Shown here: positions 4,132 to 34,320 of the stretch, piece by piece | Layout: each line of letters starts with the position of its first letter | Numbering within the stretch: the first letter of the stretch is position 1 | Assembly (NCBI RefSeq): GCF_937859865.1 | Contig: NZ_CALMAT010000018.1 | Span: 68,218 to 122,769, forward strand | DNA from: an uncultured Mucilaginibacter sp. | GTDB taxonomy: Bacteria; Bacteroidota; Bacteroidia; Sphingobacteriales; Sphingobacteriaceae | Direction of reading: 5' to 3' | DNA length: 54,552 bases | Translations under genes and position numbers: made by a program | The notes under the pieces: generated by a model | The model's input: only the letters and a program-made list of their open reading frames with translations | What the model was told of the DNA's origin: nothing | Database searches by the model: none

Positions 4132-4145
4132 GGTAAAAGAAGCAT
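4132..4145 (+). repeat. Solo GGTAAAAGAAGCAT repeat between convergent genes
   Basis: An exact copy, preceded by ACACCAATTTTTATAG, a flank shared with the copies near 25758, 48522 and 48673. It lies between the stops of the HAD gene and metF. Confidence 0.9.
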
Positions 4146-8600: not shown

Positions 8601-9302
8601 ATTGGCATGACGGATCGAATTCCAAAAAGCTTCAACCGTTTGCCCGGAAAGTGTGCGGCCGGAAGCATCCGTAATCGTCCCGGAAATCATGATGGGCAAT
8701 TTTTTGCCGGTAAAAGAAGCATAGCGGTTAATGGCAAACAAAGCTGCTTTGGCGTTGAGCGTATCAAAAATAGTTTCTACCAAAAGTACATCCGAACCAC
8801 CATCTACCAAACCGCGCACCTGTTCGTAATAAGCTTCGGCAAGGTCATCAAAAGTTACGGCACGATAACCTGGGTCGTTAACATCAGGAGAAAGTGAAGC
8901 CGTACGATTTGTCGGGCCGATTGCACCAGCCACAAAACGAGGTTTTTCAGGATTTTTTTTAGTGTATTCATCCGCAACTTCGCGTGCTATTTTTGCACCC
9001 TCAAAACTCAATTCGTAAGCTAATTCTTCCAGATGGTAATCGGCCAAAGAAATGCGTTGCGTACTAAAAGTATTGGTTTCGATAATATCGGCACCGGCAT
9101 CCAAATATTCGGCATGAATGGCTCTGATGATATCCGGACGCGTAATATTTAGCAAATCGTTGTTACCTTTTAAATCGGAATGGTGATCGCGGAAACGTTC
9201 TCCGCGGAAATCATTTTCCTCCAACTGGTAACGCTGGATCATGGTGCCCATCGCGCCGTCAATAATCAGGATACGTTTTTGTAATTCTTGTTCGATATTC
9301 AT
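5613..9302 (-). CDS. metH: Cobalamin-dependent methionine synthase
   Basis: The 1229-residue product transfers a methyl group from 5-methyl-THF to homocysteine through cobalamin. Domains in order: homocysteine-binding barrel (about 1-330; zinc cysteines in GLNCALG and [10 protein letters not shown]), pterin-binding barrel (about 350-620; [11 protein letters not shown] and [12 protein letters not shown]), cap and B12 domain (about 650-890) with the cobalt-ligand motif [11 protein letters not shown] whose histidine is about residue 762, and the SAM reactivation domain to the end ([14 protein letters not shown]). All are complete and length is normal. It is the first gene of a minus-strand unit with a four-helix-bundle gene and metF, below a SAM riboswitch. 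Two exact copies of the window-wide repeat lie in frame inside it (6566-6579, read PIKEAS; 8709-8722, read YASFTG). Confidence 0.98.
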
Positions 9303-11005: not shown

Positions 11006-11827
11006 TTAATTTTTATGGGTAAAAGAAGCATGGGCCACCGCAGTAAGCACGCTTCCGTATTGTTTTAATAATGCTGATGCTTTTTCTTCGTCCAAACCTG
11101 TTTCTGCTACAATCATTCTAACGGCGCGGTCAACCAATTTATGATTGGTAAGCTGCATATCGAACATTTTATTGCCTTTTACGCGGCCTAACTGAATCAT
11201 GACAGAAGTAGTCAGCATATTTAAGGCCAGTTTTTGTGCCGTTCCGGCTTTCATTCGGGTTGAGCCGGTCAAAAATTCCGGCCCGGTTACAATTTCTACC
11301 GGAAATGTTGCTTCTGAAGCTACTTTACTATCCGAATTGCAAACGATACAACCTGTGGTTACGCCTTCCTGATTGGCTTTTTGCAAACCGCCAACCACAT
11401 AAGGCGTAGAACCGGAAGCGGCAATGCCAACCAAAACATCCTGATTATTAATTTGATATTCCTGCAAATCTTTCCAGGCTTGTTTGGCATCGTCTTCGGC
11501 AAATTCTACCGCTTTGCGGATCGCTTTATCGCCGCCGGCAATCAAACCAACTACCCAATCAAACGGAACACCAAAAGTTGGCGGGCATTCGGAAGCATCA
11601 ACTACGCCCAAACGACCGCTTGTACCCGCGCCAATATAAAACAACCGGCCGCCATTCCGCATTTTTTCTGCCGTTGCAGCAGCCAGTTTTTCGATTTGTG
11701 GGATGGCTTTTTCAACCGCATCAGGCACCGTTTTGTCTTCTTTGTTGATGCTTTCCAAGATTTCGCGCAGCGGCATTTGCTCCAGATGGTTGTAGGCTGA
11801 GTCTTTTTCGGTAGTTCTTTGTTCCAT
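11006..11827 (-). CDS. murQ: N-acetylmuramic acid 6-phosphate etherase
   Basis: The 273-residue protein is a SIS-domain lyase that splits the lactyl ether of MurNAc-6-phosphate to give GlcNAc-6-phosphate and lactate, in cell-wall recycling. The SIS phosphosugar loop FYIGAGTSGRLGVVDASECP is at about residues 64-83, the substrate helix block GGDKAIRKAVEFAEDD follows, GIAASGSTPYVVGGL is mid-protein, and GPEFLTGSTRMKAGTAQKL carries conserved contacts. It is somewhat shorter than many MurQ proteins (about 300 residues). Its last codons, reading HASFTHKN, are formed by an exact copy of the window-wide repeat (11018-11031), so the C-terminus seems to have been set or trimmed by the repeat. A second copy lies just before its start (11834-11847). 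Confidence 0.95.
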   Translation of the reverse strand: MEQRTTEKDSAYNHLEQMPLREILESINKEDKTVPDAVEKAIPQIEKLAAATAEKMRNGGRLFYIGAGTSGRLGVVDASECPPTFGVPFDWVVGLIAGGDKAIRKAVEFAEDDAKQAWKDLQEYQINNQDVLVGIAASGSTPYVVGGLQKANQEGVTTGCIVCNSDSKVASEATFPVEIVTGPEFLTGSTRMKAGTAQKLALNMLTTSVMIQLGRVKGNKMFDMQLTNHKLVDRAVRMIVAETGLDEEKASALLKQYGSVLTAVAHASFTHKN

Positions 11828-11833
11828 GTAGGA

Positions 11834-11847
11834 ATGCTTCTTTTATC
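11834..11847 (-). repeat. Solo GATAAAAGAAGCAT repeat in the murQ leader
   Basis: An exact copy, reversed on the plus strand, seven bases before the murQ start codon. murQ therefore has a copy at both ends. Confidence 0.9.
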
Positions 11848-12370: not shown

Positions 12371-12414
12371 ATGCTTCTTTTATCGCCTAAATTTTATGCC
12401 GATAAAAGAAGCAT
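12371..12414. repeat. Inverted pair of the window-wide repeat forming a 44-base hairpin
   Basis: ATGCTTCTTTTATCG and CGATAAAAGAAGCAT face each other across 14 bases, giving a perfect 15-base-pair stem between the convergent GNAT and der genes. This is the shortest of the paired forms and may end transcripts from both sides, although neither side has a classic U tail. Confidence 0.92.
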
Positions 12415-13833: not shown

Positions 13834-14712
13834 TCAATCTTCGTATCCAAACTGTTTCAGGTAATTTTTTTTGCTGCGCCAGTCTGGGATTACTTTAACG
13901 AACATTTCCAGGAAAACTTTATGCTGGAACAATTCTTCCATGTCTTTCCGGGCGTAAGTGCCGATCTTTTTCAGCATAGCACCACCCGGGCCAATCAGGA
14001 TATTTTTTTGCGAATCGCGTTCGACAATAATTTCCGAACTGATGCGGTATATTTTTTCATCTTCCTTAAAAGCCGTAATAATTACTTCAGTGCTGTACGG
14101 AATTTCTTTTTTATAGCTTTTAAATATTTTTTCGCGGATAATTTCGGAAGCGAAGAAACGGTCATTGCGGTCGGTTAAAAAATCTTTTTCGTAATAAGGC
14201 GGATGCTCCGGCATGTACGCCAAAATTGTACCGATAAAAGAAGCAATGTCTTGCATATGCAAAGCCGAAATAGCGTAAACTGCTTTTGGGTTCAATTTTT
14301 CCTGCCAGTACGCAATTTTTTGCATCACGGTTGCTTCGTCCGATTCATCAATTTTATTGATCAGAACGATCAGCGGTGCCAGCGAGCCTTCCAGCTTTTC
14401 TAAAACGTCCTGCTCGTCGTGCTGTTCGTTGATGTCGGTCATCAGCAAAATCAAGTCCGCATCCACGATCGAGCCTTCCACCTGGTGCATCATACTTTCC
14501 TGCAAAGCATAATGCGGTTTGATGATGCCTGGCGTGTCTGAAAAAACAATTTGGTAATTTTCGCTGTTCACAATCCCCAAAATACGATGACGCGTGGTTT
14601 GGGCTTTGGAGGTGATGATCGACATTTTTTCGCCAACCAGTGCGTTCATCAGCGTAGATTTCCCTGCGTTTGGTTTCCCGATGATGCTTATAAAACCTGC
14701 CTGATGAGCCAT
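13834..14712 (-). CDS. era: GTPase Era
   Basis: The 292-residue protein has an N-terminal GTPase domain (GKPNAGKSTLMNAL at about 12-25, TRHRILGI, DTPGI, and NKID) and a C-terminal KH domain (IIVERDSQKNILIGPGGAMLKKIG) that binds the 3' end of 16S rRNA in 30S assembly. Length and domain order are standard. A near-copy of the window-wide repeat lies in frame inside it (14233-14245, read ASFIG). Upstream, divergent, is the initiator tRNA with a promoter whose inverted repeat is shared by this intergenic region. Confidence 0.97.
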   Translation of the reverse strand: MAHQAGFISIIGKPNAGKSTLMNALVGEKMSIITSKAQTTRHRILGIVNSENYQIVFSDTPGIIKPHYALQESMMHQVEGSIVDADLILLMTDINEQHDEQDVLEKLEGSLAPLIVLINKIDESDEATVMQKIAYWQEKLNPKAVYAISALHMQDIASFIGTILAYMPEHPPYYEKDFLTDRNDRFFASEIIREKIFKSYKKEIPYSTEVIITAFKEDEKIYRISSEIIVERDSQKNILIGPGGAMLKKIGTYARKDMEELFQHKVFLEMFVKVIPDWRSKKNYLKQFGYED

Positions 14713-15017: not shown

Positions 15018-15164
15018 TAAAAGCCTGTTTAAATTTCTATCAGATAAATTCGTTTGCTTCTTTTACACCTATAAATTTGTTAGAAAATGGTACTTAAAAT
15101 TTCAGATTTTATGTGTTAAAAGAAGCATAGAAAATAAGTTGAACAAAATCTAAACAGGCTTTTA
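15018..15164. mobile_element. MITE-like inverted-repeat element, copy 1
   Basis: Outer arms TAAAAGCCTGTTTA and TAAACAGGCTTTTA are perfectly inverted. Inside them lie inverted near and exact copies of the window-wide repeat (15054-15065 and 15117-15128), each followed inward by a CCTATAAATTT-like segment. The unique centre is about 50 bases. The element is 147 bases, has no coding capacity, and shows no clear target-site duplication. It lies 3' of the sigma-factor gene. Confidence 0.75.
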
Positions 15165-15315
15165 ATAATGGAAATCGTTTTGCAATTCGAAATTTCGCAT
15201 ATCTACAACCGGCTTGTTGGTATGTAAAATAGTGAAAATAACTTAGGTTTACGATCCAATTGCCGATCAACCCGGCACCTTTTTATAAATAACCAAGGTT
15301 TGTGTTTTGGGATGT

Positions 15316-15906
15316 TTATAATTTGAAGAAACTACAATAGCTAACCAAAAAAACACCAATAACTTTAAAATGTATGCGCAAGTGTTTTAAGGCCAGGGTA
15401 AGCTGATTTTCTACAGAACGCTTAGAGATCCCTAACTGTTCCGCAATTTCTTCATTGCTAAAATATTGTATTCGGCTTAACGAAAAAATTTCACTGCAAC
15501 GCCTAGGCAATTGCTCAAGGCAAATATTCATGTCGTTTTCCAATTCACCGTAAATCAGTTTCTCTTGCCCTTCATTTTCCTGCCATGACCCGGCATCTTC
15601 TGTATAAGAATCAACATACAAGATTGCAGGTTTCTTTGTTTTTTTTAAACGGGCATAAACCTGATACCTGACCGATGCTTTGAGATAGTTTGGCAGGTTA
15701 TCAATAACAATATAGTTTCTTCTGTTCCATAATGTTAGGAACAGATCAAGAACTATTTCCTCACAAACTTCAATATCTTTAACATACAAATTTGCTGTTT
15801 TATATAAGATCAGCCAATAGCGATTGAAAAGCACTGTAAAAGCACGGTAATCGTTATTGCAGATTTTTGTCCATAATTCGGCATCGCAGGGAGTGCTTTT
15901 TGCCAT
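15316..15906 (-). CDS. ECF-type RNA polymerase sigma factor
   Basis: The 196-residue protein has region 2 (DYRAFTVLFNRYWLILYKTA, then EVCEEIVLDLFLTLWNRR) and region 4 (LEQLPRRCSEIFSLSRIQYF, then SNEEIAEQLGISKRSVENQL), the two parts of extracytoplasmic-function sigma factors. The form is that of the large Bacteroidota group paired with FecR anti-sigma factors. The FecR gene lies divergently 364 bases away and is followed by a SusC receptor with an STN domain, so the sigma factor is predicted to switch on this sugar-uptake locus when the substrate is sensed. The C-terminus, FKVIGVFLVSYCSFFKL, is unusually hydrophobic for a sigma factor. Confidence 0.93.
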   Translation of the reverse strand: MAKSTPCDAELWTKICNNDYRAFTVLFNRYWLILYKTANLYVKDIEVCEEIVLDLFLTLWNRRNYIVIDNLPNYLKASVRYQVYARLKKTKKPAILYVDSYTEDAGSWQENEGQEKLIYGELENDMNICLEQLPRRCSEIFSLSRIQYFSNEEIAEQLGISKRSVENQLTLALKHLRIHFKVIGVFLVSYCSFFKL

Positions 15907-16036
15907 TTCGGTTTATTAATTGTTCGTAAAAATACAGTTAATAAAGACAAACACAAGATTTGTAAGGCAAATATTGAGGTTAAAATGCTGGTAAACGATA
16001 ACTGTTTAACTTATGCAATACTTTTTTAAAAGCTGT

Positions 16037-16196
16037 GGGCTTGTTTAAATTTCTATCATGAAAACTTATAATGCTTCTTTTATGCCTATAAATTTTGTTT
16101 TTAAAGGTTCCATCAATACAAAAAGTATAATAAACCAATGATTTTTAGGTGATAAAAGAAGCATAGGAATTATTAAATAAAATTTAAACAGGTTTT
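16037..16196. mobile_element. MITE-like inverted-repeat element, copy 2
   Basis: Outer arms GCTTGTTTAAATTT and AAATTTAAACAGGT enclose exact inverted copies of the window-wide repeat at 16071-16082 and 16153-16164, flanked inward by GCCTATAAATTTT and CCAATGATTTTTAGGTG. About 160 bases, non-coding. It sits in the divergent control region between the sigma factor and FecR genes, so it may affect their promoters. No clear target duplication. Confidence 0.78.
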
Positions 16197-16270
16197 ATGT
16201 GTGTACGCTGCATTAATGTTACACTATAATAACGTAAACCATTATTGACCGATAAAACCTTTTGCCAAAA

Positions 16271-17410
16271 ATGACACGTGAACAATATTTATTGCTCTAT
16301 GAAAAATTTTTGGTCGGCGAAGCAACTTCCGAAGAAGCAAAGAGCCTTTTATTATATCAAGACGAGTTTGAACTGCAACTGCCGACAGCAGCGGAAAATT
16401 TAGATAAAGCCAATATAAAAACCGGCAAACGGCTACTTAACAAACTAAATAGCCGCACAGGCTATTTGAAACCAAGATTTCATTTATTAAAATGGCTGTC
16501 AGCCGCAGCCGCTATTCTATTAATAGTTGCGGGAAGTATGTTCCTAAAAACCAAATCACCTGTAAACAAGCAAACAAATATACCCGTTGCAAAACGAGAT
16601 ATTGGCCCAGGTTCAAACAAAGCTACGCTTACACTTGATGACGGAAAAGTGATTTCATTAAATGATGCAGCCAATGGAACTATTACCAGGCAGGGAAATA
16701 TCACGGTAAAAAAGAAAAATGATGGCATGTTGGAATATGTGGTATCTCAAACTGCCGCCGGTAATATGCAAAAGCCATCCTTCAATACGATAACCACCCC
16801 ACGCGGCGGAGAGTATCAACTTGTATTGCCAGATGGAACAAAAGTTTGGCTTAACGCGGCATCTTCATTAAAATTTCCGTCTGCCTTTACCGGCAAAAAC
16901 AGAGATGTTAAACTTACAGGCGAAGCTTACTTTGAAGTGGCCAAAAATAAGGAAAGGCCTTTCAGGGTTAAATTTAATAATTCTGAAATTGAAGTGCTCG
17001 GTACCCACTTTGATGTTAAAGCTTACAAAGATGATGAAGAAGCCAGGGCCACGTTACTTGAAGGATCAATAAAAATCACCAAAAACAATGAGCAGCGGAT
17101 ATTACTGCCTGGCCAGCAGGCAACCGAATCTGATAAAAAAGGCTTAAAAATATCGGCTGCTAATATAGAAGAGGCTGTAGCCTGGAAAAACGGCTTTTTT
17201 ATATTTCACGATCTTGATATTCAAAGTATTATGCGTACTGCCGCAAGATGGTATGATATTGATGTGAACTATCAGGGCAACCTAACCAATAAACAATTTG
17301 GTGGGCGCATTTCAAAATACAAAAATATATCTGGGTTACTTAAAAACCTGGAACTAACTGGCACTATACATTTTACTATTGAAGGAAGGAGGGTAACTGT
17401 AATAGAATAA
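16271..17410 (+). CDS. FecR-family anti-sigma factor
   Basis: The product (379 residues from this ATG; a TTG at 16262 is possible) has a cytoplasmic N-terminal domain that would bind the sigma factor, one membrane span (FHLLKWLSAAAAILLIVAGS, about residues 75-95), the periplasmic FecR domain (TPRGGEYQLVLPDGTKVWLN, then AASSLKFP and GEAYFEVAKNKERPFRV), and a C-terminal DUF4974-type domain resembling STN (ARWYDIDVNYQGNLTNKQFGG). FecR proteins hold an ECF sigma factor until the outer-membrane receptor signals substrate. The partner receptor follows 135 bases downstream, and the sigma factor is divergent. Start chosen because the preceding TTG lacks support. Confidence 0.95.
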   Translation: MTREQYLLLYEKFLVGEATSEEAKSLLLYQDEFELQLPTAAENLDKANIKTGKRLLNKLNSRTGYLKPRFHLLKWLSAAAAILLIVAGSMFLKTKSPVNKQTNIPVAKRDIGPGSNKATLTLDDGKVISLNDAANGTITRQGNITVKKKNDGMLEYVVSQTAAGNMQKPSFNTITTPRGGEYQLVLPDGTKVWLNAASSLKFPSAFTGKNRDVKLTGEAYFEVAKNKERPFRVKFNNSEIEVLGTHFDVKAYKDDEEARATLLEGSIKITKNNEQRILLPGQQATESDKKGLKISAANIEEAVAWKNGFFIFHDLDIQSIMRTAARWYDIDVNYQGNLTNKQFGGRISKYKNISGLLKNLELTGTIHFTIEGRRVTVIE

Positions 17411-17545
17411 CTACAATTAAATTAACAGTTACCATACAAATCATCAGAAAGCGTTCGTACCGCCCCTGATGATTGTTCAGCTGTAAGCTGATATCAGGTA
17501 ACGTAATCAATCAATTCGACAACCAATTATTAACCCGACATTCAA

Positions 17546-20500
17546 ATGTACAAAAAGTTTACCGCAAACATTTGCAGGTACCAAGCCTGCGTTTTACCTA
17601 AATTCCTGAGAATAATGAAACTGACCATTATCTTATGGGTTGCTGCTCTGATGGAGGTGAGTGCTGCTACTTATGCCCAGAAAATAAATATGCATGTAAA
17701 AAACGCACCGCTTGTTCAGGTCCTGGATCAAATAAGCAGGCAAAGCAACTATAGTTTTATATATAACACAGCTATGCTTAAAAAGGCTAAGCCGGTTGAC
17801 CTTTCCGTAGCCGATGAACCGTTGGCTGAGGTTTTAGCCAAATGTTTTAAAGACCAACCTTTATCATTTGTTATTAATGAGAACACCGTTGTTATCAAAA
17901 ACAGCCCGCCTCCCGTTGTTGGTTCGGTATTTCAGGCCGAAATTACAATTGCCGGTACGGTTAACGACGAGAAAGGGCAACCGCTTCCGGGGGTATCCGT
18001 TTTATTGAAAGGCACAACAACAGGCATAGCAACCGATGCGAATGGTAAATTTTCATTAAAGCTTCCAAATGATAACGGGATCCTTGTGTTCAGTTTGATA
18101 GGGTTTACCTCACAGGAAATTGCTATAAAAGGCAAAACAAATTTTACTATTACGTTAATTGGAAAAGCATCTGCTTTAGCCGAAATAATTGTAGTTGGGT
18201 ATGGCACACAACGAAAATCTGATGTTACCGGTTCAATTTCTTCTATTAATGAAAAAGCGATAAAAAGTGTGCCTGCAAGCAATTTATTGAGTGCAATACA
18301 AGGTCAGGCACCCGGTATTGATATTCAAAAACCAGGTGGCAACAGTCATCCCGGAGCTACGCAGACTGTTTTAATCAGGGGGCAAAGGTCGCTTGGCACT
18401 TCAAACGGGCCACTATATATTGTAGATGGTTCGCCTTATAATGATGCCTACATTAATGATTTAAACCAGGACGATGTTGCATCGGTACAGATATTGAAAG
18501 ATGCCTCTGCAACAGCAATCTACGGATCGCGCGGTGCAAACGGCGTTATTTTGATTACCACTAAACGGGGTAAAAACGGAAAACCGGAAATTACCTACAG
18601 CTCATACGCCGGAATAACCAAGCCGCTGGCCTTGTATGACGCGATGGATGGAAAGGAGTTTGAAACTTACAAAAAATGGGGTATTTATAACTATTCGTTA
18701 TCTACAAACCCTGCTGTTCCAAATGGCTATTCGGGCATTGATGACCCCAAATTTTATACGGACGCATTAACCTTTTTACCATCAGAATTAGCAGCAATTA
18801 AAAACGGGACATCTACCAATTGGCAAAAACTTATCTTCAAAACCGGTTTTAAAACTGATAACCAGTTTGGGATTTCCGGGGGAACAGAAAAAACGCAGTA
18901 TGCAGTATCCGCAGGATTTTATGATGAAACAGGGGTGTTTACCGGGCAGTCCTTCCAGCGGTATTCCTTAAAAATCAGCATAGATCAGCAATTGGGAAAG
19001 ATATTTAAAGTAGGTTTTAGTTCACTTAACTCCGTAAGTGCTACCAATGGCGAAGGGATAAACCCTGTTGGCCAGGCGTTAAGATTAAGTCCGCTTACTA
19101 CACCTTATGATGCTAATGGAAACCTGGTGCCATATCCCGGGTTCAGCACGATCGTATATAATCCGTTGGCTAATTTGGTTCCGGGCGCTGTAGCTCAAAA
19201 TCGCCTAAGGTTTAATACGTTCAGCACTGTTTACTTGGAAGCACAAATTTTACCGCATTTAAAATATCGTTTTAACGGTGGTGTGCAGTTAACGCCGGAA
19301 ACTTACGGACAATACTTTGGAAGTGCGACTTATCAGAATTTAGGTGGCCCGTCAACGGCCTCTAATACCAATTACAATTATCATAATTATACGCTTGAAA
19401 ATTTATTGATTTATGATAATACTTTTGCGGGGAAGCACCACATAAATTTTACGGGTTTGTTTAGTACCCAGGACGATTACAAGGCATCAACGCAATTTAG
19501 TTACAATAATATCCTTACCAATAATGCACAGTACTTTAACCCGGGGTTTGGATCAAACTTAACTGGTTCAGGATCATCACAAAAATTTGATATCGTTTCC
19601 TACATGGGAAGGATAAATTATGATTTTGCCAATAAATATTTGTTGACCCTAACTGTACGTTCTGACGGTGCTTCCCGCCTGGCAGAGGGGAATAAATATC
19701 ATACATTTCCGTCTGCGGCGGCAGGCTGGAATATTAGCCAGGAAAATTTCCTAAAAAATTCAAATGTTATTTCCGACCTTAAACTTAGGTTAGGATATGG
19801 TGTAGTTGGCAATTCCGCAGTAAATCCTTATCAAACTTTAGGGGGCTTAGCCATAAATTACTACAATTATGGCTCTACAAATGTTACCGGGACATATCCC
19901 AACAATGTTCCCAATCCATCTTTAACATGGGAAAAGACAGCGACACTAAACGCCGGGCTGGATTTTGGAGTTTTAAACAACCGTATTACCGGTAGTATAG
20001 ATGCTTATCATGCTTATACCAGTAACTTGCTTCTTCCCCAAAATTTGCCGATAACTTCGGGCTATACTTCACAATACTATGCTAATATTGGCAAAACCGA
20101 AAATAAAGGTTTAGAGTTAAATATTACTTCTCAAAACTTTAAAAATACCGGCAGAAACAGCGTAGCCTGGAATACGACGTTCAATATAAGTTTTAACCGG
20201 AATAAAATTACAGCCTTAGCGAGCGGGGTTACCTCAGATATTGGCAATAATTGGTTTGTTGGCCAGTCCATCACTTCGATATATGATTACAAAAAGTTGG
20301 GGATATGGCAAAATGTTTCTGCCGATAGCGCCCAGGCTAAAAAGCTTGGCCTTACAATATTAGGGCCATCTTCCGTAATAGGCAATGTTCGGGTGGCAGA
20401 TTTAAATGGCGATGGAAAAATTAATGCTAATGATAAAACTATCATTGGCAATCGTGATCCGAAATTTGTGGGAGGCATATCAAACACAGTTTCTTATAAA

Positions 20501-20962
20501 GGATTTGACCTTACAGTTGTAGCCTCTTATCGTATCGGCGGCACTTTGGTTTCATCATTATACTCAAGTAATGCCAATGACCTGGGTGGAAGAAACGGTA
20601 ATTTAAATGTTGATTACTGGACGCCCTTAAACCATGCGGATTACTTTCCGAAGCCTAACTGGGCAAATAACGGTGCACCTCCATATTCAAGTGTGTTAAC
20701 CTACTTTAGTGCGTCTTTTTTAAAGGTCAGGGCATTGAGCCTTGGTTATAGTTTACCACCAACCATTATCGAAAAATTAAAAATTAAATCGTTAAGGTTT
20801 TATGTTACGGCAAATGATGCCTTTATACTATTCTCATCTTATGCCAACAAATACCATGGAATTGATCCTGAATCTGGAATTGATCCTGTATCAAAAGGAA
20901 CATTAGGAACCGATGTACCAAGCACCTATTCAATTTTAGCCGGATTAAACCTATCGTTTTAA
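17546..20962 (+). CDS. SusC-family TonB-dependent receptor with STN signalling domain
   Basis: The 1138-residue outer-membrane receptor imports glycan fragments with its SusD partner. After a signal peptide (MKLTIILWVAALMEVSAATYA region, about 24-44) come an STN domain (about 48-115), a carboxypeptidase-regulatory-like beta domain (AGTVNDEKGQPLPGVSVLLK, about 135-215), the plug (EIIVVGYGTQRKSDVTGSI; then YIVDGSPYNDAY and LKDASATAIYGSRGANGVI), and a large barrel ending SILAGLNLSF. The STN domain is the part known to contact FecR, so this is a transducing receptor. susD begins 19 bases later, an operon. Substrate class is inferred only from the downstream glycosidases. Confidence 0.97.
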   Translation: MYKKFTANICRYQACVLPKFLRIMKLTIILWVAALMEVSAATYAQKINMHVKNAPLVQVLDQISRQSNYSFIYNTAMLKKAKPVDLSVADEPLAEVLAKCFKDQPLSFVINENTVVIKNSPPPVVGSVFQAEITIAGTVNDEKGQPLPGVSVLLKGTTTGIATDANGKFSLKLPNDNGILVFSLIGFTSQEIAIKGKTNFTITLIGKASALAEIIVVGYGTQRKSDVTGSISSINEKAIKSVPASNLLSAIQGQAPGIDIQKPGGNSHPGATQTVLIRGQRSLGTSNGPLYIVDGSPYNDAYINDLNQDDVASVQILKDASATAIYGSRGANGVILITTKRGKNGKPEITYSSYAGITKPLALYDAMDGKEFETYKKWGIYNYSLSTNPAVPNGYSGIDDPKFYTDALTFLPSELAAIKNGTSTNWQKLIFKTGFKTDNQFGISGGTEKTQYAVSAGFYDETGVFTGQSFQRYSLKISIDQQLGKIFKVGFSSLNSVSATNGEGINPVGQALRLSPLTTPYDANGNLVPYPGFSTIVYNPLANLVPGAVAQNRLRFNTFSTVYLEAQILPHLKYRFNGGVQLTPETYGQYFGSATYQNLGGPSTASNTNYNYHNYTLENLLIYDNTFAGKHHINFTGLFSTQDDYKASTQFSYNNILTNNAQYFNPGFGSNLTGSGSSQKFDIVSYMGRINYDFANKYLLTLTVRSDGASRLAEGNKYHTFPSAAAGWNISQENFLKNSNVISDLKLRLGYGVVGNSAVNPYQTLGGLAINYYNYGSTNVTGTYPNNVPNPSLTWEKTATLNAGLDFGVLNNRITGSIDAYHAYTSNLLLPQNLPITSGYTSQYYANIGKTENKGLELNITSQNFKNTGRNSVAWNTTFNISFNRNKITALASGVTSDIGNNWFVGQSITSIYDYKKLGIWQNVSADSAQAKKLGLTILGPSSVIGNVRVADLNGDGKINANDKTIIGNRDPKFVGGISNTVSYKGFDLTVVASYRIGGTLVSSLYSSNANDLGGRNGNLNVDYWTPLNHADYFPKPNWANNGAPPYSSVLTYFSASFLKVRALSLGYSLPPTIIEKLKIKSLRFYVTANDAFILFSSYANKYHGIDPESGIDPVSKGTLGTDVPSTYSILAGLNLSF

Positions 20963-20981
20963 TTTTTTAACCCTTAATGTT

Positions 20982-22655
20982 ATGAAACCAACATATTTAA
21001 AAAAATTTACAACATTGTTTTTGCTTTGTGCGCTGGTAAGCTGCAAAAAACAACTGGAAGAAAACCCTCAATCCATCCTAACCCCGCAATATTTCAGTAC
21101 AGCCCAGGGCCTGCAATCCGGCCTTGATGCTGCTTACGCAGGGAACCGTCAACTTTGGGGTTCGGAAAATCTTTTGACCATGACTGAACCAGGAACTGAT
21201 GAATTTATTTCTGGAAATGGCGGTAATACAGATATCAACCGTTATTCGAGCAACTTTGACTCCAGTAGCGGTTGGGTCTCCGGGATTTGGAATGTATGTT
21301 ACGCTTACATCAATGACTGTAATGGTATCATTGATAACAGTGCCGGAGTTACAGGTATAGATCCTGCTACCTTAAAACTTAAAGTTGGCGAAGCCAAGTT
21401 TTTACGGGCCAATTATTATTTTTTATTGGTAAGGTTTTGGGGGGATGTTACGCTAAACCAACATTTTATCAGCCAGCCAACAACATCCGCTACCCGTTCG
21501 CCTATTGCCGATGTTTATAATTTCATCATTAGTGATTTAACGGATGCTATTGCTGCCTTGCCGGTAAGCCCTGTTCAAAATGGCGTGCTTCCTGGTAAAG
21601 CTACCGCCGCTGCTGCCAGGCATTTGTTAACCAAAGTGTATTTAACCAGGGCTTATTCTTCGGCAAAAAAACCTGACGATTTTCAAAATGCTTTTAATAC
21701 AGCAAAAAGTTTAATTGATAATAGTACATCACTGGGCCTCGGGCTATTGCCTGATTTTGCATCGGTATATGCAGAAGGCAATGAGGCTAATAAGGAAGTT
21801 TTATGGTCAGTTCAGCATACGTCAAATTTGGCTTACAATGCGAATGGAGACAATGGCTTGGGGAATGGAGACAATAGCCTGTTGTTTTTTTATGTTATGG
21901 GGTATGAAAATTTTCCGGGACTAAGCCGTTCGATCGCTTATGGAAGGCCATTTGCCAGGGTAATGCCAACACGTTGGTTAACCGATACTGCTTATAGGGA
22001 TAAAAGCAACGACAGCAGATATTTTAAAACGTTTCAGGCCTTATGGTTGTCAAATGATGTCAATAAGATTCCAAAAGTTAATGGTGTGCCAAAATATACC
22101 TTGGGCGATACTGCCGTGTATATGCCTGGCGTAGATGTAAGCGATGCCAAAATAGCGGCTACCCGGTATTTATTAGTTCCACCCCGTAAATACAATCTTC
22201 AACTATTCCCAACCATGCTAAAATATCAGGATACCAAAAGAATTGGGATAAATAATGTTTCCATCAGGCCTATAATTGTTTATCGTTTAGCGGAGACTTA
22301 TTTAATGGCTGCCGAAGCAGCCTTTAATTTAGGCAATAGCACTGATGCGGCAAAATACATTAACGCTGTGCGGGAAAGGGCTGCCTATCCGAATGGTAAT
22401 GCAGCAGCTATGGATATTACACCTTCAAATGTTACCCTCGATTTCATTTTAGATGAAGATGCCAGGGAATTATGTGGTGAACAATTTAGGTGGCTGGATT
22501 TGGTTAGGACGGGGAAGCTGGTTGAAAGGGTTCGTTTGCATAATACCGATGGCAGCATTAATATAAAGCCCTACCATGTATTACGCCCGATACCACAATC
22601 TCAAATTGACAGGACTATTGCAGGCCCTAAGTATCCACAAAATCCGGGTTATTAA
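20982..22655 (+). CDS. SusD-family outer-membrane glycan-binding lipoprotein (RagB/SusD)
   Basis: The 557-residue protein caps the SusC barrel and binds the glycan. A lipoprotein signal peptide ends in LLCALVSCKKQ with the acylated cysteine at about residue 21. SusD hallmarks include EENPQSILTPQYFSTAQGLQ near the N-terminus, the TPR-like VGEAKFLRANYYFLLVRFWGD, RHLLTKVYLTRA, and the C-terminal RPIIVYRLAETYLMAAEAAF then DFILDEDARELCGEQFRW with LDLVRTGKLV. It follows susC on the same transcript. A MITE-like element separates it from the GH2 gene. Confidence 0.97.
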   Translation: MKPTYLKKFTTLFLLCALVSCKKQLEENPQSILTPQYFSTAQGLQSGLDAAYAGNRQLWGSENLLTMTEPGTDEFISGNGGNTDINRYSSNFDSSSGWVSGIWNVCYAYINDCNGIIDNSAGVTGIDPATLKLKVGEAKFLRANYYFLLVRFWGDVTLNQHFISQPTTSATRSPIADVYNFIISDLTDAIAALPVSPVQNGVLPGKATAAAARHLLTKVYLTRAYSSAKKPDDFQNAFNTAKSLIDNSTSLGLGLLPDFASVYAEGNEANKEVLWSVQHTSNLAYNANGDNGLGNGDNSLLFFYVMGYENFPGLSRSIAYGRPFARVMPTRWLTDTAYRDKSNDSRYFKTFQALWLSNDVNKIPKVNGVPKYTLGDTAVYMPGVDVSDAKIAATRYLLVPPRKYNLQLFPTMLKYQDTKRIGINNVSIRPIIVYRLAETYLMAAEAAFNLGNSTDAAKYINAVRERAAYPNGNAAAMDITPSNVTLDFILDEDARELCGEQFRWLDLVRTGKLVERVRLHNTDGSINIKPYHVLRPIPQSQIDRTIAGPKYPQNPGY

Positions 22656-22717
22656 AACGACATAAAGGGATGCGGGTAACCGTATCCCTTTAACAGAAAC
22701 AATTAAAATAGTTAGCT

Positions 22718-22884
22718 TTAGAGCTTGTTTAAATTCTATTCATTTATTTTCTATGCTTCTTTTATCACCTAAAAATCATTGGCCCATGGTGCTTTTTGTA
22801 CCTGTATAATATTTACACACCAAAATTATAGGCATAAAAGAAGCATTACACTTTTTTATAATATAAATTCAAAACAGGCTCTTA
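22718..22884. mobile_element. MITE-like inverted-repeat element, copy 3
   Basis: Outer arms TTAGAGCTTGTTTAAATT and AATTCAAAACAGGCTCTTA enclose exact inverted copies of the window-wide repeat at 22753-22764 and 22835-22846, with inner flanks CACCTAAAAATCATTGG and CACACCAAAATTATAGG. 167 bases, non-coding. It ends six bases before the ATG of the GH2 gene and thus forms that gene's leader. Confidence 0.78.
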
Positions 22885-22890
22885 CCATTC

Positions 22891-25614
22891 ATGAATAAAA
22901 AATACATACTTATAACTACTTGTTTTTTGCTGCTGGAGAGTGCCTTATTTGCACAAACTCAGGCTCATTTATCGCAGCCCTCGGCAAGCCAATCTGTTTT
23001 TCTAAGGTCTGCAAAAGGTTATAACGGGGCATATGCCTGGCAGATGCATAAAGCCAATGGGGCCGAAGGGAAAGAGGTTTCGTCGGTTCAATACAATACA
23101 TCCGGTTGGCAAGCAGCAATTATACCCGGAACGGTATTGAACAGCCTGGTTGCAAACAAAGTGTACCCTGAACCTTATTACGGCGACAACAACCGCCGGT
23201 CAAAAAAACTGATCCCTGATATAGCCGATGCCGGAAAAGAATTTTATCATTATTGGTTTCGTACTGTTTTTACCATCCCAAAATCATTCTCAGGGAAACG
23301 CGTTTGGCTAAAGTTTCATGGAATAAATTATCGCTGCGAAATATGGGTAAACGGCAAGAGTTTAGGGAAAATGGCCGGTATGTTCAACGCCCAGTCTTAT
23401 GATCTTACCGGCATAGCCAAACCTAACGGTGAAAATATATTGGCTGTTGATGTGTTGCCTGTTGATGTCCCGGGTACCTACTACAAACCAGGACAAGGCC
23501 GGACAGGCGCGGTTGGTGAAAACCATAATGGCGGGGACGGCGAAATCGGAAAAAATGTAACCATGCTGATGAGCGTAGGCTGGGATTTTACCTCGCCTGA
23601 TGGTATACGCGACAGGAATACAGGGATATGGCGTGATGTAGAATTATATGCTACCGGCGATGTTGTGTTGGAAAACCCATTTATACAAACCAAAATGCCT
23701 TTGCCTGATACTTCATTAGCTAAACAAACGGTATCTGTTGAGGTAAAAAATGCATCCGATAAGGTGCAAAAGGGAGTTTTATCAGGTAAAATAATTGAAA
23801 GCGGAAATACATTTAGTAAACCAATTACGCTTGCGCCCAATGAAACACGGACGGTCATATTTAATCCCGAAGATTATCCTTCATTAACCATACATCACCC
23901 TAAATTATGGTGGCCAATAAATAAAGGTAGCCAGAGTTTATATACGCTAACGGTAAAATATACCGGTTCGTTAAACCAGGTAAGCCATTCCGTTACTACA
24001 CAATTTGGTGTGAGGGAAATATCTTCTGATCAAAACACGCCTGATAAGTCAAGAAGGTTTTTGGTAAATGGCCAGCCTGTATTTATAAGAGGTACCAATT
24101 GGGTGCCCGAAGCAATGCTGCGCAATACGGAACAGCGTACCTATGCTGAATTGAGGTACACCAAACAGGCAGGCGTTAATTTTTTACGCTTATGGGGAGG
24201 AGGCATTGCAGAGTCTGATTATTTCTACCAGCTATGTGATAAATTTGGATTTTTAATATGGAACGAGTTTTGGCTAACGGGCGATACCCGTTTCCCTACT
24301 GATACAACTTTGTACCTGAAAAATTTCGAAAACACTGTGAAAAGGATCCGTAATCACCCCGCGCTTGCTTATTACGTAGCTGCCAACGAATCAGGAGAAG
24401 TAAAAGGAACCCGCGCGCTTGTTGAAAGGCTCGACCCCACCCGCGGCTACCAGGTACAATCAGAATGTTGTGGCGTACATGACGGCAGCCCTTATAAATA
24501 TGAAAACCCGATGCAGTATTTTGAAAATACAGCATCTAAAAGAGGTAGCCGTGTGGATGGCTTTAACCCGGAATACGGCACGCCAAGCACACCTATATTA
24601 GAATCATTAAAAAAAATGATGCCGGCTAAAGATTTATGGCCAATCAACGATTCGGTATGGAATTATTTGGACGGAAACGGATTTCACCAGATAACCACTA
24701 AATACAGGGAGGCCGTTAACGAATTTGGAAAATCATCATCAATAGAAGAATTTGCAAGGAAGGCCCAATTTGTAGGGGCCATGAATTTCAGGGCTATATG
24801 GGAAGTATGGAACTATAATAAATTTGGTTATGGCGACCGTTTTGCATCCGGATTGTTGTTCTGGTATCACAACAGTCCGTTGCCGCAAACGGCTTCGCGC
24901 ATGTATGATTGGTATTTGGAACCAACCGCAGCATTATACTATTCGCAAAACGGCCTTGCACCACTACATCCGCAATTTGATTATTTAAAAAATACGGTAT
25001 CTGTATATAATGATTACCGCAAAGCATTTAATAATTACAGCGTGGAAGCTACGGTTTATGACCTGAACTCAAACGTGATTTTAAAAAAAGCAAATCAAAT
25101 AAATATTCCTGCCGATGGCGTTGTAAATGATGCCATTAAATTAGATTTCCCAGCCAACATTACCCAGGTGCATTTTATAAAGTTGAAATTGAAGGACAAT
25201 CAGGGAAAGGTAGTTGCGGACGCCTTTTATTGGCGGTCTAACGATGCCTATAAAGGTGCCTGGACAATGACAGGCCCGGCGGTTTCCGGGTTTGAGGATA
25301 TTAACAAATTGCCGAAAGCAAAATTGGATGTAACTGTTAATAAGCATGTAGCCAATGGTAAACTGCTTATTCAGGCAAGCATAAGCAATTCTTCGAAATC
25401 GTTGGCTTTTTTTACGCAGTTAAAATTGCAGGACGATACCAAAAATAATCTGGCGCCCATTTATTACACAGACAATTTTTTCAGCTTATTGCCTGGCGAA
25501 TCCAAAACCGTAACTATTGAAGTTGCCCTTGCCGGCCTCAGTACCAAAAAGCTACAATTAATTACCGATGCTTTTAATGCAAACAGTATAAATACAAGTA
25601 TTGATATGCCGTGA
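22891..25614 (+). CDS. Secreted glycoside hydrolase family 2 enzyme (beta-mannosidase / exo-glucosaminidase type)
   Basis: The 907-residue protein has a signal peptide (MNKKYILITTCFLLLESALFA), a GH2 sugar-binding domain (about 45-255; YHYWFRTVFTIPKSFSGKRV and WLKFHGINYRCEIWVNG), an immunoglobulin-like domain, the catalytic TIM barrel (FLVNGQPVFIRGTNWVPEAM; NFLRLWGGGIAESD), and C-terminal beta domains. The acid/base is expected in YVAANESGE (NE pair) and the nucleophile in GFNPEYGTPSTP, which fits the E-x-G-x-x-S pattern. The build is closest to exo-beta-glucosaminidase and mannosidase branches rather than LacZ. In this locus with a GH51 enzyme, it would trim a side chain or backbone of a plant-type or fungal glycan; exact linkage unknown. 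The leader is a MITE-like element. Confidence 0.9.
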   Translation: MNKKYILITTCFLLLESALFAQTQAHLSQPSASQSVFLRSAKGYNGAYAWQMHKANGAEGKEVSSVQYNTSGWQAAIIPGTVLNSLVANKVYPEPYYGDNNRRSKKLIPDIADAGKEFYHYWFRTVFTIPKSFSGKRVWLKFHGINYRCEIWVNGKSLGKMAGMFNAQSYDLTGIAKPNGENILAVDVLPVDVPGTYYKPGQGRTGAVGENHNGGDGEIGKNVTMLMSVGWDFTSPDGIRDRNTGIWRDVELYATGDVVLENPFIQTKMPLPDTSLAKQTVSVEVKNASDKVQKGVLSGKIIESGNTFSKPITLAPNETRTVIFNPEDYPSLTIHHPKLWWPINKGSQSLYTLTVKYTGSLNQVSHSVTTQFGVREISSDQNTPDKSRRFLVNGQPVFIRGTNWVPEAMLRNTEQRTYAELRYTKQAGVNFLRLWGGGIAESDYFYQLCDKFGFLIWNEFWLTGDTRFPTDTTLYLKNFENTVKRIRNHPALAYYVAANESGEVKGTRALVERLDPTRGYQVQSECCGVHDGSPYKYENPMQYFENTASKRGSRVDGFNPEYGTPSTPILESLKKMMPAKDLWPINDSVWNYLDGNGFHQITTKYREAVNEFGKSSSIEEFARKAQFVGAMNFRAIWEVWNYNKFGYGDRFASGLLFWYHNSPLPQTASRMYDWYLEPTAALYYSQNGLAPLHPQFDYLKNTVSVYNDYRKAFNNYSVEATVYDLNSNVILKKANQINIPADGVVNDAIKLDFPANITQVHFIKLKLKDNQGKVVADAFYWRSNDAYKGAWTMTGPAVSGFEDINKLPKAKLDVTVNKHVANGKLLIQASISNSSKSLAFFTQLKLQDDTKNNLAPIYYTDNFFSLLPGESKTVTIEVALAGLSTKKLQLITDAFNANSINTSIDMP

Positions 25615-25650
25615 TGCAGTACAAACTCGTAACTACCGATTCAAAAATCA

Positions 25651-25803
25651 TTTAGAAGCTGTTTAAATTTTGCCTGATGCTTCTTTTATCACCTAAAAAT
25701 TGGTAAATATTTAGTTTTGGTTTCATTTTAATTGATGCAAACACCAATTTTATAGTGGTAAAAGAAGCATGCGTTTTTTATTAAAATTTAAACATGCGCT
25801 TAC
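25651..25803. mobile_element. MITE-like inverted-repeat element, copy 4
   Basis: Arms GAAGCTGTTTAAATTTT and AAAATTTAAACATGCGC enclose exact inverted copies of the window-wide repeat at 25677-25688 and 25759-25770. Inner flanks are CACCTAAAAATTGG and ACACCAATTTTATAG. About 153 bases, non-coding, between the GH2 and GH51 genes. The outer right arm has drifted by one insertion. Confidence 0.75.
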
Positions 25804-25870
25804 AATGTTGCAGGGCTACAACAAAAAATTGAACAATGCACCATTTTAAAATAGAAGATAAATTTCCAGT

Positions 25871-27454
25871 ATGTTATCGAGAAGGCATTTTATTTCCCTT
25901 GCTGCAACAGGTGGGTTAAGTTTAACGTTAAAAAACAGATCAGTTGCCGCTATTAGCCAGTTGTTTAACAAGCCTTTGTTGCAGGCATCAATCTATATAG
26001 ACTTTGCCAACCCGGAAGGCCTTATAGACAAAGCCATTTACGGGCAGTTTATTGAACACTTGGGGCGCGCAATTAACGGAGGCATTTTTGAAGAAGGTTC
26101 GCCGCTTTCTGACAAAAAAGGCATCCGTTTGGATGTATTGGAAAAAATAAAGCAGATGCAGCCCACCGTACTACGTTATCCTGGTGGTACGTTTACCAAA
26201 ATATACCATTGGATGGATGGTATAGGCCCACTTAACGAACGACATGGCCGGCCAAACCTGATTTGGGGCGGCGTGGAGAACAACCATTTCGGTACAGATG
26301 AAGCCGTAGCGTATTCAAAAATCATTGGTGCAGAACCTTACTTCTCCGTAAATATGGGCACTGCCGAAGAGGCCGGCAACTGGGTAGAATATTGCAACGG
26401 CAACCAAGACACGTATTATACCAACTTGCGCCGTAAAAATGGGCATATAGACCCATTTAAAGTAAAATACTGGGGGCTGGGCAACGAGGAAGCGGCCAAA
26501 CCTGATATTGGCCGCCTGCAAAAAGTAGAAGATTACGTAAAGGAAGCATGGTTTTATACTAAGGCGATGAAGCTGCAGGATAAATCTATAAAACTCATAT
26601 TAAGTGGTGCAGATGATAACGCTTGGAACGAATACTTGTTAAAGGAAATGGGCGATGTATGTGATTACATTTCTTTGCATTGCTATGTAGGTGCCGATAA
26701 AACCAAACCGGCATCACTTTTCCCGCGCATAGAAAAATTAGAAAAGAATATCCTTGACCTTAAACAAAAGATACAGGTCCTTACCCCGGCAAAAGTTGCC
26801 AATTTCCATAGGTGGTACCGTTTCCCGCCAAGGCCAGCTCCGGTTAAAATTGCGATTGACGAGTTGGGTATTTGGGAATCGGGTGGCGGCGCTTATAACC
26901 TGGAAGACCAATATAACTGGAACCATGCTTTGGGCACGGCCACGTTTTTTAATATTATGCAAAGGCAGGCATCTGTAGTTGGCATGGCTACCTGGGCGCA
27001 AACAGTGAATGTGCTGGCACCTATTATGACCAGTAAAACAGCATCCGTTTGCCAGACCATTTATTATCCTATGCAATTTTACCGCAAGCACGCGGGCAAC
27101 ATCAGCCTCAAGTGCGAGGTAAAAACCAGCGATATTCAGATGCCGGGGGCGGAAGGCGCGCAGGTGCTGGATGTATCGGCGACCCTAAATGATGCAGACG
27201 GAACCCTTACCCTTTTTGTAGTTAACCGCCATCCCGAATTGGCCGTAAAAACCGGTTTAGGCAATATCAACAGCAAAAAATACAATACCGTTAAAGTTTA
27301 TGAACTAAATGCCGCAACTATACTTGCAATCAATACGTTGGAACAGCCGCAGAAAAACGTAGTGATAGCAAGCGAAAGAAAACTAAATGGCGTAGTGTCT
27401 GAATATACTTTCCCGGCACATTCCATTTCTGCCTTGGTTTTTAAAAAGGTTTAA
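25871..27454 (+). CDS. GH51 alpha-L-arabinofuranosidase
   Basis: The 527-residue protein begins with a twin-arginine-like signal (MLSRRHFISLAATGGLSL), then the GH51 barrel: IYGQFIEHLGRAINGGIF near the N-terminus, QPTVLRYPGGTFTKIYHW, the acid/base glutamate in YWGLGNEEAAK, and the nucleophile glutamate in KIAIDELGIWE, followed by a C-terminal beta domain. GH51 enzymes remove terminal arabinofuranosyl units from arabinans, arabinoxylan or arabinogalactan. Here the usual GNEM/GNEN is GNEE and the nucleophile motif is DELG, within family variation. The neighbouring GH2, SusCD and regulators make this an arabinose-containing glycan locus. It is flanked by MITE-like elements on both sides. Confidence 0.92.
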   Translation: MLSRRHFISLAATGGLSLTLKNRSVAAISQLFNKPLLQASIYIDFANPEGLIDKAIYGQFIEHLGRAINGGIFEEGSPLSDKKGIRLDVLEKIKQMQPTVLRYPGGTFTKIYHWMDGIGPLNERHGRPNLIWGGVENNHFGTDEAVAYSKIIGAEPYFSVNMGTAEEAGNWVEYCNGNQDTYYTNLRRKNGHIDPFKVKYWGLGNEEAAKPDIGRLQKVEDYVKEAWFYTKAMKLQDKSIKLILSGADDNAWNEYLLKEMGDVCDYISLHCYVGADKTKPASLFPRIEKLEKNILDLKQKIQVLTPAKVANFHRWYRFPPRPAPVKIAIDELGIWESGGGAYNLEDQYNWNHALGTATFFNIMQRQASVVGMATWAQTVNVLAPIMTSKTASVCQTIYYPMQFYRKHAGNISLKCEVKTSDIQMPGAEGAQVLDVSATLNDADGTLTLFVVNRHPELAVKTGLGNINSKKYNTVKVYELNAATILAINTLEQPQKNVVIASERKLNGVVSEYTFPAHSISALVFKKV

Positions 27455-27513
27455 TCTGCCAATCAAAACAAAAAAGCAATTTGGAGATATGATCTTGATG
27501 CAAAATACCTTTT

Positions 27514-27596
27514 ATACTTCTTTTATCCCATAAAATTAATGCTGTTGTAGCTGTCCGTATTTAGGAAAATAAAATTTACAGGTATAAAAGAAGCAT
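27514..27596. mobile_element. MITE-like element, copy 5 (core only)
   Basis: A near copy of the window-wide repeat (ATACTTCTTTTA at 27514) and an exact inverted copy (27585-27596) surround a CCATAAAATT / AAAATTTACAGG core, but the outer CCTGTTTAAATTT arms are missing. 83 bases. The flanking bases TGCAAAATA and TTGCAAATT are similar. It closes the sugar locus on its 3' side. Confidence 0.65.
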
Positions 27597-30470: not shown

Positions 30471-30484
30471 GGTAAAAGAAGCAT
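30471..30484 (+). repeat. Solo GGTAAAAGAAGCAT repeat
   Basis: An exact copy, immediately before the AAA ATPase stop codon and 12 bases upstream of the metallophosphatase start on the minus strand. Confidence 0.9.
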
Positions 30485-31976: not shown

Positions 31977-32192
31977 AGTTTTTATAAGAAAGTCCGTAAG
32001 CCCGGATTTGGATGGTTTTTAGTTGTCCGAAAGTCGGGAAAGGCCGAATTCGGATTTTATAGTTTTTTAATTTTAGTTAGAAAGTAGGAACGCTACAACC
32101 AGAACTAAGTGATTTAATAAATTTATGTTGATAAAAGAAGCATTGCAGTTCCGTCTTTCGGACTTCCTGACTTTTCGTCTTTCGGACTCCTT
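31977..32192. repeat. Spacer with AGTCCGAAAG repeats and a solo GATAAAAGAAGCAT
   Basis: The 216-base gap holds GTCCGAAAG at 32025 and its inverse CTTTCGGAC at 32155 and 32179, a palindrome CCGAATTCGG at 32044, and an exact window-wide repeat at 32130-32143. The repeats could fold into a long imperfect hairpin. No coding sequence or terminator seen. Confidence 0.6.
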
Positions 32193-33435: not shown

Positions 33436-34320
33436 TTATTTCTGCTGTTTGATGGCATTTATTTTTTCGAGATCGTAAATCGGATTTGCGCCGTAACTGC
33501 CAGCCACAAAAGCGCCGATTGCCGAAGCATTGACCAGGATTTCCTCCATTGGTAGCTGGTTTAATAAACCGGCAATAAACGTAGCGAGGAAAGAATCGCC
33601 TGCGCCAACGGTATCCACCACCTCAACTTTAAAACCCGGATGCCGGTAAAAATGGTTCTGGTGCAAAACGATGCAGCCGTTTCCGCCCAGCGTTACACAA
33701 ACCGTTTTAACATGGTATCGGCGGCTAAACTCTTTCATTTTATCTTCCAGCGAAGCGTGTTGCTCATTTTGGGGCGATAAAAGAAGCATTTCCTCGTCGT
33801 TCATTTTTACCACATCAGCGTTTTGTGCCAAAGTTTCGATGACGTTTAAGTTGTAATGCGGCGGGCGCAAATTGACATCAAACACTTTGAAAACGTGGTT
33901 TTTAAGCAACAGCAGCAGCGTGTTTAAGCTTGTTGGTGTGCGGCAGGCCAAGCTTCCGTAAACAATCATCTCAAACGGAAATGCTTCTTTTACCCCTATT
34001 TTTTCGGGCTGGATATTGTCCCAGGAAACCGGCTGCGGAATGGTGTACTTGGCGTGCCCGTTTTCATCTAAATGAACGGTAACCAAACAGGTTGGCAATT
34101 CCGGGTCGCGTTGGATGAATTGCGTTGGAAATTTTTGCGTTTCCAGATAAACGAGAAGTTCTTCGCCTAAATCATCTTCGCCAATCCGTGTCATCATTTC
34201 AGTTGGAATTTGTTGCTGTAAAAGGTGCATCGCCACATTCATGGGTGCGCCGCCTGCTTTTTTCTCCGCGCCAAAACCGTCCCACAAAACTTCGCCGAAG
34301 CATAAAACCTGTTTTTCCAT
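33436..34320 (-). CDS. PfkB-family carbohydrate kinase (fructokinase-like)
   Basis: The 294-residue cytoplasmic kinase has the ribokinase fold. The N-terminal GEVLWDGFGAEKKAGGAPMNVAM carries the sugar-binding GG motif (about residues 23-28). The C-terminal motif is VEVVDTVGAGDSFLATFIAG, with the catalytic aspartate in GAGD (about residue 247) and ATP anion hole. The form VLCFGEVLWDGF is typical of fructokinases. Two exact copies of the window-wide repeat lie in frame (33776-33789, read MLLLSP; 33981-33994, read GVKEAF). It is divergent from the NTF2-like gene. Fructose specificity is inferred. Confidence 0.88.
   Translation of the reverse strand: MEKQVLCFGEVLWDGFGAEKKAGGAPMNVAMHLLQQQIPTEMMTRIGEDDLGEELLVYLETQKFPTQFIQRDPELPTCLVTVHLDENGHAKYTIPQPVSWDNIQPEKIGVKEAFPFEMIVYGSLACRTPTSLNTLLLLLKNHVFKVFDVNLRPPHYNLNVIETLAQNADVVKMNDEEMLLLSPQNEQHASLEDKMKEFSRRYHVKTVCVTLGGNGCIVLHQNHFYRHPGFKVEVVDTVGAGDSFLATFIAGLLNQLPMEEILVNASAIGAFVAGSYGANPIYDLEKINAIKQQK

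Follow-up and report, generated by a model that had tools for sequence, protein, structure and literature searches.

A putative self-specific DNA uptake sequence in one Sphingobacteriaceae genus, carried in part by IS5-like MITEs

The best-known DNA uptake sequences are those of the Pasteurellaceae and the Neisseriaceae. The uptake signal sequence (USS) of Haemophilus and other Pasteurellaceae (AAGTGCGGT or ACAAGCGGT) is present in many hundreds to thousands of copies on both strands, has a very strong consensus, is shared throughout its clade, combines a core with a downstream A/T motif, and has arisen within genes by substitution, not by copying (PMC1626085). The neisserial DNA uptake sequence (DUS; ATGCCGTCTGAA and its dialects) is a 12-mer that is found about once per kb, also as close inverted pairs, and its scarcity in laterally acquired genes marks conjugative islands (PMC3630211, PMC2397512, PMC7371117); it lacks a flanking A/T motif (PMC1626085), and its reader is the type IV pilin ComP (PMC4906244). 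The strength of the consensus is a puzzling attribute common to USS and DUS (PMC1626085). We analysed a 54,552-nt stretch of the genome of an uncultured Mucilaginibacter sp. (contig NZ_CALMAT010000018.1, positions 68,218 to 122,769; hereafter the window), in which another 12-mer, ATGCTTCTTTTA, forms hairpins at the gene junctions of a sugar locus.

Our favoured reading, to which we assign a probability of roughly 0.8, is that this 12-mer and an A/T tract downstream of it act as a self-specific DNA uptake sequence in a single genus of the Sphingobacteriaceae, spread partly by IS5-like miniature inverted-repeat transposable elements (MITEs) that carry the site; the uptake function is argued from analogy with the systems above and from the distribution of the sites. 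The signal appears to combine a single A/T tract of the Pasteurellaceae kind with inverted pairs of the neisserial kind. It differs from the USS in having an unrelated core, in belonging to the Bacteroidota and not the Gammaproteobacteria, in showing one clear A/T tract and not two, and in a stronger non-coding bias, and it is known from sequence alone. It also differs in sequence from the DUS, and whereas the DUS reader is ComP, the reader in Mucilaginibacter is a presumptive one.

Abundance, shape and origin of the sites

In the 3.98-Mb genome ATGCTTCTTTTA occurs 2,114 times, with 1,055 copies on one strand and 1,059 on the other (the genome is a draft in 177 contigs, and this symmetry is a global one only); the same letters reversed occur twice. 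The window itself holds 34 exact copies of the 11-mer TGCTTCTTTTA, against 0.12 expected. Our comparison included three species of the genus, and the 12-mer was found 1,947 times in Mucilaginibacter arboris (HMF7410) and 1,118 times in the metagenome-assembled genome (MAG) "Sphingobacteriaceae bacterium Lichen_MAGs_lobaria3", hereafter the lichen MAG. Sites lie on average 0.96, 1.10 and 1.41 kb apart in the three species; the spacing of meningococcal DUS is ~1.15 kb (PMC2397512). Other genera of the family have 0-10 copies, and a survey of 395 genomes of the class yielded no other genome with more than 11; with family and class taken together, some 580 further genomes are at chance level (at most 11). 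An R-degenerate form, ATRCTTCTTTTA, occurs 0-14 times in 20 named relatives, and in two outgroup Mucilaginibacter (400 kb each) no other 12-mer reaches a comparable frequency. Two single matches of the 17-mer in IMG/VR seem incidental. The consensus is very strong: 454 kb contained 221 perfect and 124 singly mismatched copies, and 55 of the latter are the G-to-A allele, which is tolerated. As a separate observation, short tandem-like repeats of the TCTCACATCTCA / ATCTCAAATCTC type are present in several Mucilaginibacter and Daejeonella loci (outgroup loci L114, L086, L103, L095, L133 and others).

The shape of the motif was determined from 828 kb of the same genome and 400 kb of each sister species. 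There are four core alleles, AT(G/A)CT(TC/GT)TTTTA, and at the variable pair (core positions 6-7) the single-step intermediates TT and GC are rare. Next to the core on its 3' side come a pyrimidine and a well-conserved C; a short G+C-rich spacer separates these from an A/T tract at +7 to +12, which is mostly 93-100% A+T at coding and non-coding sites, in all three species and with all four core alleles. The full motif is thus bipartite: ATRCT(TC/GT)TTTTA is followed, across the spacer, by an A/T tract roughly a helical turn away; one clear tract was seen, and a second was not established. The TC and GT alleles replace one another at orthologous sites in 23 comparisons, each of which would be two simultaneous changes that keep a recognised motif. 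That alleles differing by two adjacent bases nonetheless interchange suggests one specificity that reads two dinucleotides. Convergent site pairs have spacing peaks at 6, 20 and ~65-73. At a spacing of 6, the A-run of each core would fall at the position expected for the A/T tract of the other site, and at a spacing of 20 both sites would share one tract.

Among 450 perfect sites, 101 are coding and 349 non-coding, or 0.14 and 3.2 per kb on crude open reading frame (ORF) calls. Coding sites in reverse orientation never use the frame that gives a TAA stop. Homologues from outgroup genera were available for 81 site-bearing protein segments; 77 of these align without gaps near the site, and none of the 77 homologues carries it. 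We conclude from this that coding sites arise by substitution, the origin already shown for the Haemophilus USS (PMC1626085). When species of the genus are compared, 52-72% of the 11-mers at sites are identical, whereas the figure for in-frame control 11-mers from these genes is 9-12%. Position by position, identity peaks at the core and again at +17 to +23, counted from the start of the core, and falls in the spacer; the A/T tract is 91.4% identical, compared with 84.0% for A/T-rich controls in the same phase. Because the species pairs are not independent, these figures describe the strength of conservation and not its formal significance.

Foreign islands are poor in sites; in the Neisseriaceae, conjugative elements have been located through their scarcity of DUS (PMC7371117). 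At 61 kb, the longest stretch free of sites lies in the lichen MAG (G027 C1:59460-120467, L203-L207); it carries genes for a TrwC relaxase, two tyrosine integrases, a serine recombinase, a type I restriction-modification (RM) system and ArdC. The longest gap in the M. arboris DNA examined is 12 kb and includes a type III RM system and an integrase, and a 9.3-kb site-free gap in the genome of the window is a glycan gene cluster of 30% GC. The 61-kb conjugative and RM island adjoins era in the lichen MAG, and in the window it is the sugar locus that lies on that side of era, beside a tRNA-Met gene (14851-14925); since both are on the same side, this may be a variable spot.

Paired sites of the sugar locus and their MITE family

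The sugar locus encodes an ECF (extracytoplasmic function) sigma factor, FecR, SusC, SusD, a glycoside hydrolase family 2 (GH2) enzyme and a GH51 arabinofuranosidase. A preliminary description of the window had listed five hairpin elements there, and we recovered all five at their coordinates, with the ten inverted sites reading as described. Four are bounded by outer arms of the GAGCCTGTTTAAATTT type and measure 141-161 bp, and the fifth (27514-27596) is a bare inverted site pair. The junction hairpins are therefore four site-carrying MITEs and one pair of sites, with the following coordinates (TIR, terminal inverted repeat).

15021..15161, MITE 1 (141 bp), 3' of the sigma gene, with two inverted uptake-type sites; TIRs AAGCCTGTTTAAATTT / AAATCTAAACAGGCTT; flanks TAA / TTA, i.e. 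a non-identical target duplication
15055..15065, plus strand, MITE 1 site, TGCTTCTTTTA
15117..15128, minus strand, MITE 1 site, ATGCTTCTTTTA
16037..16195, MITE 2 (159 bp), between the divergent sigma and fecR genes; TIRs GGGCTTGTTTAAATTT / AAATTTAAACAGGTTT; target duplication not clear
16071..16082, plus strand, MITE 2 site
16153..16164, minus strand, MITE 2 site
22721-22881, MITE 3, between the SusD and GH2 genes; TTA duplication at 22718-22720 and 22882-22884
22753..22764, plus strand, MITE 3 site, full bipartite motif ATGCTTCTTTTATCACCTAAAAAT
22835..22846, minus strand, MITE 3 site
25655-25799, MITE 4, between the GH2 and GH51 genes; TTA duplication at 25652-25654 and 25800-25802
25677..25688, plus strand, MITE 4 site, full bipartite motif
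25759..25770, minus strand, MITE 4 site
27514..27596, inverted site pair without MITE ends, between the convergent GH51 and cupin genes
27514-27525, plus strand, site of the bare pair, ATACTTCTTTTA allele
27585-27596, minus strand, site of the bare pair

The preliminary description called these elements MITE-like, and this is borne out by their terminal repeats, by TNA target duplications and by a sister-species IS5-family insertion sequence (IS) with nearly the same ends. Its statement that they show no plain target duplication holds for MITE 1, whose flanks are TAA and TTA, and for MITE 2, where none is clear, and is wrong for MITE 3 and MITE 4, which have TTA direct repeats. The pattern is also not special to the sugar locus. 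The region has 11 sites, compared with a mean of 12.6 per 12.6 kb, although five pairs in 12.6 kb place it within the top 4.4% of windows; throughout this genome, 169 of 196 intergenic gaps of at least 200 nt contain a site and 89 contain a pair spaced by 40-110. We therefore rejected clustering specific to the locus. Nor is there support for preferential insertion into a mobile or recently acquired locus, the elements being genome-wide and the local site density average. What the earlier reading missed is that the 12-mer of the hairpins is a genome-wide, strand-symmetric, genus-specific signal.

The 828 kb contained 116 pairs at a spacing of 40-110, of which 46 match the MITE ends on both sides, allowing up to 4 mismatches, and 28 on one side; the 65-73 spacing class is mostly TIR-bounded. 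Identical 3-bp flanks, mostly TTA and TAA as in TNA target duplication, are present in 19 of the 46 (8.7 expected), and in 9 of the 19 best-preserved elements, a number reached by 30 of 2,000 shuffles. A search by ends alone recovered 33 short elements, 31 with both sites intact and 2 with one. In an alignment of elements found in this way, by ends and not by sites, the columns are ~1.0 identical in the sites and 0.3-0.6 identical through much of the interior. Most elements are 150-170 bp, and none lies inside a called ORF. The elements are thus short and non-coding, with GAGCCTGTTTAAATTT terminal inverted repeats and TNA duplication, like the MITEs of the IS5 family. A possible kind of parent is present in M. 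arboris, where an IS with DUF4096 and DDE_Tnp_1 ORFs (NCBIfam IS5) has the ends GAAACTGTTTAAATTTTGTT, which match the MITE consensus at 18/20 bases, and a TTA duplication. None of the nine DDE_Tnp_1 loci of the genome of the window has exact MITE ends; one has related ends, GAGGTTGTTTAAACTT, and no clean duplication. IS5-like ISs with GAGGTTGTTTAAACTT ends, related to but distinct from those of the MITEs and without clean TNA duplication, are located at L283:56-988 (the same genome) and L279:1110-2039 (the lichen MAG). Two orthologous gaps that lack the element are candidate empty sites with imperfect alignments; one holds the sister species' own site, and in the other the alignment is ragged.

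These elements differ from other IS5-family MITEs in that all their well-preserved copies contain inverted uptake-type sites, in nearly every case two intact ones. The Correia elements (CREE) of Neisseria are comparable in being intergenic MITEs of hundred-bp scale in a genus with an uptake sequence. Correia elements are not known to be organised around pairs of DUS. Signals for DNA import or competence are not mentioned in a review of prokaryotic MITEs. Up to about one quarter of the sites in the genome of the window have come from the MITEs, and the lichen MAG has more than 1,100 sites and almost no MITEs; the signal is therefore independent of the MITE.

Elsewhere in the window lie a short inverted pair and a series of single sites.

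12371..12414, short inverted pair (spacing 20) that would share one A/T tract, just 3' of ORF 11959-12366
1287..1297, plus strand, single site, coding
2725..2735, plus strand, single site, 3' end of an ORF
4134..4144, minus strand, single site
6567..6577, plus strand, single site, coding; outgroup orthologue without it
8711..8721, minus strand, single site, coding; outgroup orthologue without it, M. arboris has it
11020..11030, minus strand, single site
11835..11845, plus strand, single site
14235..14245, minus strand, single site, inside the era GTPase gene; outgroup orthologue without it
30473..30483, minus strand, single site
32132..32142, minus strand, single site
33778..33788, minus strand, single site, coding
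33982..33992, plus strand, single site, coding
34408..34418, plus strand, single site, coding
36010..36020, plus strand, single site, coding
38093..38103, plus strand, single site, coding
38562..38572, minus strand, single site, full bipartite motif
39133..39143, minus strand, single site, coding
40827..40837, minus strand, single site, coding
41082..41092, minus strand, single site, coding
48522..48532, minus strand, single site
48673..48683, minus strand, single site
50531..50541, plus strand, single site, intergenic
53179..53189, plus strand, single site, coding

Alternative explanations

The preliminary description had proposed, as one of two possibilities, that the hairpins act at the RNA level, as stem-loops determining transcript ends and relative gene dosage. 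The elements do fold as RNA (z = -6.35, -3.20, -5.90, -1.80 and -7.19 for the five stretches tested), junctions of convergent genes hold a site pair more often (31/74) than divergent junctions do (20/82), and paired neisserial DUS function as terminators (PMC2397512). Given the folding and the convergent bias, the pairs may have a side role as terminators. As the main role of the pairs, terminators or transcript stabilisers seem to us very unlikely. Hairpins of the terminator or REP (repetitive extragenic palindromic) type would be confined to intergenic 3' ends as complementary pairs, whereas most sites here are single; ~284 single genic sites in the 828 kb have the same A/T tract and almost no MITE end nearby. 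A hairpin, moreover, requires complementarity and not a fixed 12-mer with a tract, and pairs do occur between divergent genes, among them MITE 2, which lies upstream of both sigma and fecR and so cannot serve a shared transcript end. The same single sites bear on the idea that the 12-mer is a mere MITE or repeat family with decayed copies and no role in uptake, which we consider hardly credible. Many copies do lie in TIR-bounded elements with TNA target duplications. However, a TIR-like end is near only 1 of the 284 single coding sites, on which ground we rejected these as MITE remnants; coding sites align ungapped to site-less homologues; the lichen MAG has its sites almost without MITEs; and within the MITEs the sites are intact while the remainder decays.

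A site for chromosome maintenance inside the cell, such as a Chi-like recombination hotspot, a nucleoid organiser or a segregation signal, can likewise be short, abundant and clade-specific, and conservation at the DNA level with interchangeable alleles would fit any DNA-binding reader. We nevertheless regard this explanation as improbable, since the near-equal use of the strands (1,055/1,059) and the very strong consensus fit uptake better, and the heavy intergenic bias, the absence from conjugative and RM islands, the complete absence from sister genera and a downstream A/T tract like that of the Pasteurellaceae USS (PMC1626085) all argue in the same direction. An uptake sequence, in turn, would be expected to show the copy number, presence on both strands, origin by substitution, clade restriction, island scarcity, flanking A/T segment and accompanying competence genes that we found. 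Several points weigh against it. The non-coding bias apparently exceeds that of Haemophilus, in which 65% of the USS lie in coding sequence (PMC1626085); the comparison within the genus covers three species, and the island evidence rests on two or three large islands; ComEC, DprA and helix-hairpin-helix (HHH) proteins are common and are no proof of competence; and the literature searched contains no uptake or transformation experiment for this genus.

Candidate machinery and implications

We found comEC, dprA (in all three genomes) and a ComEA-like protein with a double HHH. Directly upstream of comEC (L295:11840-13888, minus strand; contig C20 of the genome of the window) is a gene for a 682-aa protein that has a signal-like start, a weak match to HHH_3, which is ComEA-type, at residues 59-120 (E 0.043), and a C-terminus, ...VRVQVRYRF, that resembles an outer-membrane barrel. 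A single-sequence structure model of this protein was uninformative (mean predicted local distance difference test, pLDDT, of 33). By inference from these features, it is a candidate outer-membrane DNA receptor or channel. Within the same phylum, Riemerella anatipestifer is naturally transformable, for which it depends on ComEC, DprA, ComF, RecA, an HHH protein and further proteins that have no known counterparts (PMC8459023). Two papers on its natural transformation do not mention an uptake sequence, and the open-access literature searched, which excludes most subscription papers, reports none for the Bacteroidota.

Under the uptake reading, a surface DNA receptor would prefer DNA with ATRCT(TC/GT)TTTTA-YC-N4-AAAAWT, and DNA of lysed kin would be imported via a ComEC-type channel and then recombined. 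Alleles with a site would be copied in more often, so that sites would accumulate genome-wide by molecular drive, through point substitution inside genes and by free build-up in intergenic gaps. The IS5-like MITE family, with two inverted full sites per copy, would add sites on top of this drive. A MITE with uptake signals, or the DNA adjoining it, would likely be imported preferentially, with the result that both of its sites stay intact while the rest decays, and MITEs may in this way hitchhike on transformation. We hold more tentatively, at a little short of an even chance, the fuller account in which a single genus of the Bacteroidota evolved a self-specific uptake system of its own, whose outer-membrane apparatus is probably unlike the type IV pilus and ComP, and recruited a MITE family as carrier of paired signals that both supplies them and spreads by natural transformation.

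In these genomes, stretches without sites make foreign islands easy to spot. If the uptake reading is true, a culturable species, M. arboris HMF7410, would be a system for finding the receptor, and tagging of donor DNA may make polysaccharide degraders of the Mucilaginibacter type transformable, which would aid their genetics. MITEs loaded with uptake signals would show transposable elements exploiting transformation in a new way. The signal would also be a third, unrelated origin of uptake specificity, in another phylum, which would mean that sequence-policed bacterial sex evolves repeatedly.

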